This document shows positions 28,591 through 33,236 of a stretch of 64,000 nucleotides of DNA, piece after piece (positions within the stretch are counted from its first letter, which is position 1; the number at the start of each line of letters is the position of its first letter). This DNA comes from Modestobacter lapidis (GTDB taxonomy: Bacteria > Actinomycetota > Actinomycetes > Mycobacteriales > Geodermatophilaceae), in NCBI GenBank assembly GCA_019779905.1, contig JABAKE010000004.1:1-64000 (forward strand), given 5' to 3'. The notes under the pieces are model-generated. The model searched no databases. It worked only from the letters and a program-made list of their open reading frames with translations, and was not told where the DNA came from. The position numbers and the translations under genes are program-made.

Positions 28591-30369
<1,779 letters not shown>

Positions 30370-30483: not shown

Positions 30484-30684
30484 CTACAGGCTCTGGACGG
30501 CGTCGGCCTGCGGACCCTTCTCGCCCTGGACGACCTCGAAGGAGACCCGCTGGCCCTCGTCGAGGCTCTTGTACCCGTCCATCTGGATGGCCGAGTAGTG
30601 GACGAAGACGTCCTGACCGCCGTCGACGGCTATGAAGCCGAAGCCCTTCTCGGAGTTGAACCACTTCACGGTGCCCTGTGCCAC
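30484..30684 (-). CDS. cspA: Cold-shock protein CspA family
   Basis: A 66-residue single cold-shock domain. RNP1 KGFGFIAV is near residues 15-22 and RNP2 VFVHYSAI near 29-36. It binds single-stranded RNA as an RNA chaperone. The GTG at 30684 ([10 protein letters not shown]) is the standard family start; a GTG at 30696 would add four residues. The order groEL, csp, threonine-synthase-like gene matches, from memory, the Streptomyces SCO4293-4296 neighbourhood. The interval 30685-30898 holds the promoter and a dispersed repeat, and no further gene. Confidence 0.95.
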
Positions 30685-30851
30685 GTGTGCTCCCACGTTC
30701 TGTGCGGACGGCCCCCGGGGACGGGGAGCCGGGTGTCAGCTCTTCCGCCCGCCGAACACGAACGTGGACCCGAACCGCGCGGAACGCTACATCAGCCAGT
30801 GGCGCAGATCACCGTCCCGACGCGCCGCCTCACCCGGTGTGGTGGCCTGCT

Positions 30852-30894
30852 GCAGGGTCCCGCGCCGAGCCGGCGAGGCGTGGGGGGCAGCGGG
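30852..30894 (-). repeat. Dispersed 42-base 3'-flank repeat, copy B
   Basis: Near-identical to 3227-3268 and located four bases after the stop of the threonine-synthase-family gene, in the same orientation relative to that stop as copy A to its gene. It probably contributes to transcript 3' end formation. Confidence 0.6.
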
Positions 30895-30898
30895 GTTC

Positions 30899-32215
30899 TC
30901 ACCCGATGAGGCCCGCCTCGCGCAGCGACTTCAGCGAGGGCTGCACGTGGTGCGTCGGAGCGACGACCGGCAGCAGCGGATCGAGGGTCTTGAGCCCCTC
31001 GCCGGTGTTGAGGACGACGGTCTCCGCGGCCGGGTCGAGCAGCCCGCGCTCCACCAGCTGGCACAGCACCGCGATCGTCACACCGCCCGCCGTCTCACCG
31101 AAGATACCGGTGGTCCGGGCCAGCCGGCGGATGCCCGCCACGATCTCGTCGTCGCCGACCCGGCCGATCGATCCCCCGGTGCGCCGGACGGCGTCCAGCG
31201 CGTACGGGCCGTCGGCGGGGTTGCCGATGTTCAGCGACTTGGCGATGCCGGTGGCGCGGACCGGTTTGATGACGTCCCAGCCGTTGTCGAAGGCGGTGGC
31301 GATCGGGTCGCAGCCGGCCGACTGCGCGCCGAAGATCCTCCAGTCGCTGTCCTCGACGATCCCGGCCGCGACCAGCTCGCGCCAGGCCTTGTCCACCTTG
31401 GTCAGCAGCGAGCCCGACGCCATCGGGATGACGACCTGGGCCGGGATGCGCCAGCCCAGCTGCTCGGCGATCTCGTAGCCCATCGTCTTGGAACCCTCGG
31501 CGTAGTACGGCCGGACGTTCTGGTTGACGAAGGCGGTGTCCTCGAACTCGTCGGTCTCGGCGAGCTCGCTGGTCAGCCGGTTGACGTCGTCGTAGGACCC
31601 GTCGACGGCGATCAGCGCCTGCCCGTACACCGCGGACTGGACGATCTTCCCCGGCTCGAGGTCGCTGGGGACGAAGACGAACGAGGGCAGGCCCATCCGC
31701 GCGGCGTGCGCGGCGACGGAGTTCGCCAGGTTGCCGGTGGAGGCGCAGGCGATCTTCGTGTAGCCGAAGCTCTTGGCCGCGGTGGCGGCGAGGCTGACCA
31801 CGCGGTCCTTGAACGAGTGGGTGGGGTTGGCCGAGTCGTCCTTCACCCACAGACCGCCGGTGATGCCCAGCTCGGCAGCCAGCCGGTCGGCCCGGACCAG
31901 CGGCGTGAGGCCGGGGTCAAGGCTCACCCGGTCGGCCGGATCCTGCCCGACCGGCAGCAGGGCGGCGTAGCGCCAGATGTTCTGCGGGCCGGCCTCGATC
32001 TGCTCGCGGGTGACCGCGCGCATCAGCTCGGGGTCGTAGTCGACCTCGAGGGGGCCGAAGCACTCGGCGCAGGCGTGCTCGGCGATCAGGCCGAAGGTGG
32101 CGCCGCAATTGCGACAGACCAGGCCGCGGGCCGGACTCGGAGCGATCTGCCCGCCGGCGGTCGCGTCTGCCTGGACAGAACCGGGAGCGGTCAGGGTCGG
32201 GGTGGGCGAGCTCAT
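30899..32215 (-). CDS. thrC: Threonine synthase family PLP enzyme (ThrC, or MetM-like homocysteine synthase)
   Basis: A 438-residue fold-type II PLP enzyme. An N-terminal zinc-ribbon (CRNCGATF and CAEC, residues 34-52) precedes the PLP lysine in NPTHSFKDR near residue 142. Threonine synthases convert O-phosphohomoserine to threonine. A SAM-I riboswitch controls this gene, which fits a methionine role better. In Streptomyces the homologue MetM makes homocysteine from O-phosphohomoserine using the sulfur carrier MetO (literature recalled, not checked). No MetO-like gene is adjacent here. Start ATG at 32215 lies ten bases after an AGGAGG. Confidence 0.88.
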   Translation of the reverse strand: MSSPTPTLTAPGSVQADATAGGQIAPSPARGLVCRNCGATFGLIAEHACAECFGPLEVDYDPELMRAVTREQIEAGPQNIWRYAALLPVGQDPADRVSLDPGLTPLVRADRLAAELGITGGLWVKDDSANPTHSFKDRVVSLAATAAKSFGYTKIACASTGNLANSVAAHAARMGLPSFVFVPSDLEPGKIVQSAVYGQALIAVDGSYDDVNRLTSELAETDEFEDTAFVNQNVRPYYAEGSKTMGYEIAEQLGWRIPAQVVIPMASGSLLTKVDKAWRELVAAGIVEDSDWRIFGAQSAGCDPIATAFDNGWDVIKPVRATGIAKSLNIGNPADGPYALDAVRRTGGSIGRVGDDEIVAGIRRLARTTGIFGETAGGVTIAVLCQLVERGLLDPAAETVVLNTGEGLKTLDPLLPVVAPTHHVQPSLKSLREAGLIG

Positions 32216-32229
32216 GCGACGACTACCTC

Positions 32230-32353
32230 CTCATCTTCCCCGCGCCGGGCCGTCGAGCCGCGCGGGACGGAATTGGCACCTTCCCTCCGCGGGTGTGCGG
32301 ATGGCGGTTGCCGGGGCTTCATCGGGCCGTGTCCCTCTGCCCCTCTGGATGAG
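32230..32353 (-). ncRNA. SAM-I (S-box) riboswitch controlling the threonine-synthase-family gene
   Basis: On the minus strand the order of conserved S-box blocks is complete: P1 5' strand CTCATC, then AGAGGGGCAGAGGGAC, GGCCCGATGAAGCCC, CGGCAACC, GGTGCCAATTCC, and GAAGATGAG closing P1. P1 pairs 32348-32353 with 32230-32235. The AGGAGG ribosome site (32226-32231) overlaps the 3' strand of P1, so SAM binding should directly hide it and turn translation off. Confidence rests on the match to the known consensus, not on a covariance search. Confidence 0.93.
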
Positions 32354-32414
32354 TGGAACGCCGGGGACTCTACCCGCGCCCGGCCCGCCCGGGCGCGACG
32401 GTCAGGATGGGCGG

Positions 32415-33236
32415 GTGGCCACCCGCATCGTCTACACCGACCTCGACGGCACCATGGTCGGGCCGCGCGGCTCGTTCTGGCACACCGCGGGCCGCGACCT
32501 GACCGCCTCGCCGGCCACCGCGTTGCTGGAGCTGCACCGGGCCGGTATCCCGTTGGTGCTGGTCAGCGGCCGCACCCACGACCAGCTGGTGGAGGCGGCC
32601 CGGATCTTCGCCGCCGACGGGTCGATCGCCGAGCTGGGGTCGCTGATCAGCTGGGCGGCCGGCCGGGAGCAGCACCTGCTCACCGGTGAGCTGCCGGCCG
32701 AGCACACCGGCCGCACGCCGATGGCGGTCATGTCCGCCCTGGGTGTGGTCGACGAGCTGCTCGCCGCCCACCCCGGCCGGATCGAGTGGCACGAGCCCTG
32801 GCACGCCACCCACACCGCCGACGCCCTGCTGCGTGGCCTGGTGCACCCCGTCGCCGTCGACCGCTGGCTGGCCGACCGGGGTTGGGGCTGGCTGACCCTC
32901 AAGGACAACGGCCAGGTGCCGGCCGGCCCGCGGATGACGCTGCTGCCCGAGGCGCTGCCGCCGCGGGTCTACCACCTGATGCCGCGCGGGATCACCAAGG
33001 GCGCGGCCATCCGCTGGGACCTCGCCCGGCGCGGCCTGGCCGCGGCGGACGCCGTCGCGATCGGGGACAGCGTCAGCGACCTGGAGATGGCCCCGGCGGT
33101 CGGCCGGTTGTGGGTGACCGCGAACGGCGCCGGGGTTCCGGGGATGGCCGAGCTGCTCACCGCCGTCCCGAACGCCACGGTGACCGACGCCCCGATGGGC
33201 GAGGGCTGGGCCCAGGCCGTGTCGGCCTCGCTGTAG
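32415..33236 (+). CDS. HAD-family phosphatase (mannosyl-3-phosphoglycerate phosphatase-like)
   Basis: A 273-residue protein of HAD subfamily IIB. Motif I YTDLDGTMVG contains the nucleophile and acid aspartates (near residues 9 and 11). Motif II is LVSGRT near 49, and the late GDSVSDLEMA motif is near 216. This subgroup dephosphorylates mannosyl-3-phosphoglycerate or related sugar phosphates. No partner synthase is adjacent, so the substrate is open. The GTG at 32415 was chosen (VATRIVYTDLDG). It is divergent from the riboswitch-controlled gene. Confidence 0.85.
   Translation: MATRIVYTDLDGTMVGPRGSFWHTAGRDLTASPATALLELHRAGIPLVLVSGRTHDQLVEAARIFAADGSIAELGSLISWAAGREQHLLTGELPAEHTGRTPMAVMSALGVVDELLAAHPGRIEWHEPWHATHTADALLRGLVHPVAVDRWLADRGWGWLTLKDNGQVPAGPRMTLLPEALPPRVYHLMPRGITKGAAIRWDLARRGLAAADAVAIGDSVSDLEMAPAVGRLWVTANGAGVPGMAELLTAVPNATVTDAPMGEGWAQAVSASL

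Follow-up and report, generated by a model that had tools for sequence, protein, structure and literature searches.

A SAM riboswitch precedes a putative MetM-type homocysteine synthase gene of Modestobacter lapidis that lacks an adjacent metO gene

Judging from its sequence relationships, a gene of Modestobacter lapidis that would routinely be annotated as thrC is very probably an ortholog of Streptomyces metM. Its product would be a homocysteine synthase that uses O-phospho-L-homoserine, with CysO as the most likely sulfur carrier, and its expression would be repressed by SAM. The gene is located in the analyzed stretch of 64,000 nucleotides, which is called the window throughout the text. 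Hasebe et al. 2024 (Appl Environ Microbiol 90:e01247-24; available text of PMC12172450) described MetM, its carrier MetO and a SAM riboswitch in front of metM in Streptomyces albulus. The enzyme family itself is already published; new here is the absence of MetO beside metM in whole lineages.

This assignment would correct a routine thrC misannotation across much of the class, and it raises the question of which sulfur source is used by MetM where MetO is missing. The MetM route is widespread and was always accompanied by a SAM riboswitch in a sample of 196 genomes. If it is true that CysO serves MetM, the synthesis of cysteine and of methionine would draw on a single pool of thiocarboxylate, i.e., protein-bound sulfur.

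The metM Locus and Its SAM Riboswitch

Table 1. Features of the metM locus in the window.
Feature	Position	Strand	Evidence
metM ortholog, 438-aa PLP enzyme with N-terminal CxxC...CxxC ribbon, thrC by profile	30899..32215	-	ORF, profile, tree, residues
SAM (S-box, SAM-I) riboswitch aptamer, RF00162	32228..32355	-	cmscan, full length
Shine-Dalgarno-like GGAGG, in overlap with helix P1 of the aptamer at its 3' strand (GATGAGGA, 32228-32235)	32226..32230	-	sequence reading
metM-csp gap, site of metO in Streptomyces-like genomes, without carrier gene here	30685..30898	.	six-frame profile search, synteny
Cold-shock protein gene (csp), conserved neighbor, no role supposed	30484..30684	-	translation, synteny
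groEL ORF, conserved neighbor; probably starts at an internal ATG around 30222	28591..30315	-	profile, synteny

The RF00162 match upstream of metM reached 72.4 bits (E 5.3e-15, cmscan; gathering score 44.4), covered positions 1-108 of the 108 model positions and passed the curated threshold. It was the only match to this model in the 4.78-Mb Modestobacter genome. The original prediction of a complete S-box aptamer in front of the gene was thus borne out over the full length of the model. The location of aptamer and gene was also right, and only the end had been given as 32,353, while the model match extends to 32,355.

The ATG of metM starts 12 bases past the end of the aptamer. In the minimum-energy fold of the leader, part of the GGAGG sequence was paired within an extension of P1; in comparison to shuffled sequences the fold energy showed no extra stability (z -0.50). 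No transcription terminator was found when positions 32,100-32,500 were searched. The overlap of GGAGG with P1 together with the lack of a terminator-like site points to translational control of metM: at high SAM levels the aptamer would close P1 over the Shine-Dalgarno sequence and less metM would be translated. The 20 printed leaders from other genomes were also purine-rich directly past P1, with a layout that varied. Leaders of several families (L131, L133, L136, L138, L139, L143, L145, L146) carry GAGG...AAAGG...CCTC directly after P1. This motif could fold as a small hairpin around the ribosome site and is not present in the leader of the window.

As predicted, csp and groEL are both located downstream of metM on the same strand. 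The gene order is metM, metO, csp, groEL in Streptomyces-like genomes and metM, csp, groEL in the window. This neighborhood is common but not universal: among 80 named loci, csp was located downstream of metM in 52 and groEL in 62, and among 20 class regions the counts were 7 and 13, respectively. Among named organisms, the closest relatives of the metM gene of the window belong to Modestobacter, with 93% to M. caceresii. According to the available text of a 2021 reannotation of Streptomyces lividans (PMC8079986), the RF00162 leader of SLIV_16930-SLIV_16925 was listed under threonine biosynthesis. In both cases a SAM riboswitch precedes a threonine-annotated gene, which is part of a two-gene unit in S. 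lividans and a single gene here.

Separation of MetM from Threonine Synthase

That the gene would normally be called threonine synthase was confirmed by the NCBIfam thrC profile TIGR00260, to which the window protein scored 232.7 bits (cut-off 167.1); it also matched threonine synthases of the PDB with a best E value of 6e-49. An AlphaFold2 model of the protein, for which 31 sequences were used, had low quality (mean pLDDT 67.2, pTM 0.57) and was for this reason set aside as a query for fold searches.

The Modestobacter genome harbors a second gene of this kind, a thrC directly after hom (contig C383), and ThrC was present in 191 of the 196 class genomes. The two Modestobacter proteins are homologous with about 41% identity and have the PLP lysine motif SFKDR in common, but ThrC lacks the N-terminal Cys4 ribbon and has other conserved active-site loops. 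In a tree of 61 MetM and 4 ThrC sequences, with carrier-linked Streptomyces-like sequences and no named S. albulus sequence as MetM reference, the groups parted with 98% support and the window protein was placed outside the ThrC clade. FastTree with 122 MetM and 30 ThrC sequences and the same reference supported the ThrC clade with 0.987 and the MetM node itself with just 0.42. At 46 aligned positions, residues were at least 95% conserved within MetM and within ThrC and differed between the groups (for example STGNT to STGNL and GNAGN to ASGxL), and 19 further MetM positions, the CxxC...CxxC ribbon among them, had no counterpart in ThrC; 80 of the 122 MetM rows in this comparison came from one clade. 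Several of the changed loops are presumably contact sites for substrate or cofactor in ThrC structures. Another seven positions that split carrier-linked from unlinked MetM were dropped as confounded by taxonomy, because most unlinked rows share one clade.

By orthology, membership of the window protein in the MetM family is well supported, with formation of homocysteine from O-phosphohomoserine as the predicted activity. The original assignment to the MetM type rather than to ThrC is therefore strengthened by orthology, the conserved residue changes, the association with the riboswitch and the separate hom-thrC. We infer the substrate, the product and the sulfur donor of MetM as well as the direction of its regulation. 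ThrB would produce O-phosphohomoserine, from which MetM as a PLP enzyme would remove the phosphate; MetM would then attach sulfur to the gamma carbon, whereas ThrC adds water at the beta carbon. The sulfur would be delivered by a thiocarboxylated ubiquitin-like carrier that is charged by a MoeZ-like enzyme.

Distribution of MetM and Other Homocysteine Routes

The class sample consisted of 196 genomes, each at least 90% complete, and proteins with E <=1e-80 to the window protein were taken as the MetM set. A MetM-type protein was found in 135 and RF00162 in 140 of the genomes. All 135 MetM genes had RF00162 upstream on the same strand within 1.5 kb, at a median distance of 45 bp and within 250 bp for 131 of them. 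Nine of the 144 RF00162 matches in the class were not upstream of metM (G100:C24, G132:C1:1504714, G048:C13, G021, G027, G056, G002, G029:C10, G071). Both MetM and metX were present in 62 genomes, MetM only in 73, metX only in 56 and neither in 5. MetM and metX complement each other across the class (odds ratio 0.076, p 2e-10, with relatedness ignored).

The Modestobacter genome has the full metX/metY set besides metM. The original prediction had named a full metX/metY set combined with the lack of any other thrC as evidence against it; the former is present in the genome, and so is the other thrC. The metY-metX operon is led by a SAM-IV riboswitch (RF00634, 82.6 bits, L012:2820-2935, corresponding to G000:C229:12564-12679 on the minus strand), whose end lies about 42 bases upstream of the probable start of metY. 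Two candidate homocysteine routes, MetM and metY-metX, are thus each located behind a different class of SAM-sensing RNA, and this gives strong circumstantial support to a role of metM in methionine synthesis. Since the full metX/metY set is present, MetM need not be the sole homocysteine route in this genome and could be secondary to the metX-metY route. A PF01053 search, performed in this genome alone, revealed a protein above the cut-off for cystathionine gamma-synthase, and a cystathionine gamma-lyase-like protein is also encoded. The metA and HcyBio families were detected in none of 12 genomes, comprising that of the window and eleven MetM genomes without MetO and metX.

A different function of the window protein has to be considered, namely that of a true SAM-controlled threonine synthase or of a bifunctional enzyme. 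The naming by TIGR00260 would agree with this, as would a Microcystis homolog with 51.6% identity to S. albulus MetM, for which activity as a threonine synthase has been reported. In the available text (PMC12172450), this homolog was mainly a threonine synthase/deaminase, yielded threonine and alpha-ketobutyrate and was not fully MetM-like in cells, a warning against reading function from homology alone. We regard either function as improbable in view of the separate hom-thrC, the deep split from ThrC with its changed conserved positions, the riboswitch upstream of every MetM gene in the sample and the 73 genomes with MetM but without metX. It is also conceivable that metX-free genomes form homocysteine by a cystathionine synthase that acts on O-phosphohomoserine, similar to plants, and that MetM without MetO need not function. 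Such a route would leave unexplained that every MetM kept its SAM riboswitch and that the open frame of MetM is conserved over family-level divergence, and it appears quite improbable despite the PF01053 protein of the Modestobacter genome.

Absence of MetO beside metM

A MetO-type carrier gene directly downstream of metM, beginning 0-190 bp after it, was found in 101 of the 135 genomes, among the matches listed. In the window, a profile search in all six frames detected no carrier gene beside metM. It had been noticed before that a MetO-like gene is not adjacent to metM here, and this extends to whole lineages. Since metO is not directly downstream, the window locus is a MetM ortholog and not a MetM-MetO two-gene system. 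As far as the available text of PMC12172450 goes, it resembles the S. albulus system in the ThrC-homologous enzyme, which falls into a clade of Streptomyces-like sequences, in the SAM riboswitch upstream and in csp and groEL downstream. In contrast to S. albulus, Modestobacter has no metO beside metM and possesses metX and metY under their own SAM-IV riboswitch.

Apart from contig-end cases, the 34 MetM genomes without linked metO belong to the family of the window and to seven further groups of family level (f3, f8, f10, f14, f17, f21 and f32). In two of the 34 (G004 and G060) the locus is truncated by the end of the contig. Among the remaining 32, 30 were inspected by profile, 29 of these with at least 603 bases downstream and one (G186) with 374; G031 and G059 were counted as lacking a linked metO, as none was among the matches listed. 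A linked MetO-type gene was likewise found in 0 of 79 informative named loci; the 80 named loci include Modestobacter, Blastococcus, Geodermatophilus, Klenkia, Micromonospora, Actinoplanes and Glycomyces, and one of them (L046) has only 8 bases downstream. Linkage of metO changed at least 5 times on a 65-sequence tree. The root state was unlinked, so that loss of metO is not proved. A metO-like gene adjoins the Microcystis homolog of MetM (available text of PMC12172450), and this favors loss. Searches of the open-access literature yielded no account of MetM being active in the absence of MetO.

CysO and Other Candidate Carriers

The search of the genome suggested with the original prediction retrieved, besides hom-thrC, metX and metY, candidate carriers ending in GG. 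Five genes of the Modestobacter genome scored above the cut-off of PF02597 (ThiS family). Two of them are ThiS genes; the others encode a MoaD, a CysO and a carrier-like protein whose gene is paired with that of a BNR-repeat protein. CysO would most likely be the carrier in the Modestobacter lineage: its gene is arranged in the order mec-cysO-cysM, and its tail PAVAGG is identical to that of MetO. The protein falls into the CysO clade (0.988) of a carrier tree, from which near-duplicates were left out (six metM-adjacent rows and the cysM-adjacent L149 and L154). The metM-adjacent carriers in this tree are not one clade, and the CysO clade sits among them. In all 19 inspected regions with a cysO-type gene, 11 of them from other MetO-free genomes, cysM was found within 1 kb.

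The whole cysO-cysM-mec set of the M. tuberculosis type is present in the Modestobacter genome. According to the available text of PMC3227635, the M. tuberculosis system has in common with the one proposed here the fold type of the PLP enzyme, an O-phospho substrate and a MoeZ-charged carrier with C-terminal thiocarboxylate. CysM differs in that it turns O-phosphoserine into cysteine; the sharing of CysO with MetM is new and proposed here. MoeZR charges both MoaD and CysO in Mycobacterium (same source), and a gene for a ThiF-domain activating enzyme is located on contig C110 of the Modestobacter genome. A precedent for carrier borrowing is BexX of Amycolatopsis, which borrows carriers of primary metabolism (available text of PMC11323500).

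Eleven MetO-free MetM genomes had no detectable metX, metA or HcyBio. Ten of them contained exactly one MetO/CysO-type carrier among the matches listed, and in each of the six genomes whose carrier gene was inspected this sole carrier was CysO beside cysM. The lone CysO in such genomes indicates that, where MetO is absent, MetM may borrow CysO or take free sulfide. We tentatively suggest, with a probability close to but below one half, that CysO replaces MetO in the Geodermatophilaceae as well as in several further lineages of actinobacteria. CysM, which converts O-phosphoserine to cysteine, and MetM, which would convert O-phosphohomoserine to homocysteine, would then be supplied by one carrier.

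CysO is the most likely replacement of MetO, and free sulfide its main rival. Direct use of sulfide by MetM of the Modestobacter lineage, without any protein carrier, would be the simplest answer to the missing partner, given that metO is not linked. The fold-type II PLP enzyme CysK, a relative of MetM, uses sulfide. A MetO/CysO-type carrier was, however, present somewhere in the genome for all 135 MetM genomes, including 34 of 34 without linked metO, compared to 29 of 61 genomes without MetM among the matches listed; relatedness and the role that CysO itself has with CysM confound this comparison. Sulfide as the donor would agree equally well with these observations; we give it a rather low probability. 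The carrier for MetM might also be the second non-ThiS carrier-like gene, which lies 100 kb from metM (C338:132670-132882; L008, L167). Its orphan product ends in VAGG and has three of four residues distinguishing MetO from CysO. A weak tree places it close to some MetO, on a long branch. The gene is paired with that of a BNR-repeat protein, the same pair occurs on a Burkholderia stagnalis replicon (partners 36% identical), and relatives of the carrier are found on Burkholderia, Cupriavidus and Pseudomonas records. We consider a function of this protein with MetM highly improbable and, due to the BNR pairing, the Burkholderia pair and the long branch, reject it as a candidate for a relocated MetO. 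The two ThiS genes are separate from each other (L006 and L007; G000:C90 and C361), and each follows a ThiO-like ORF.
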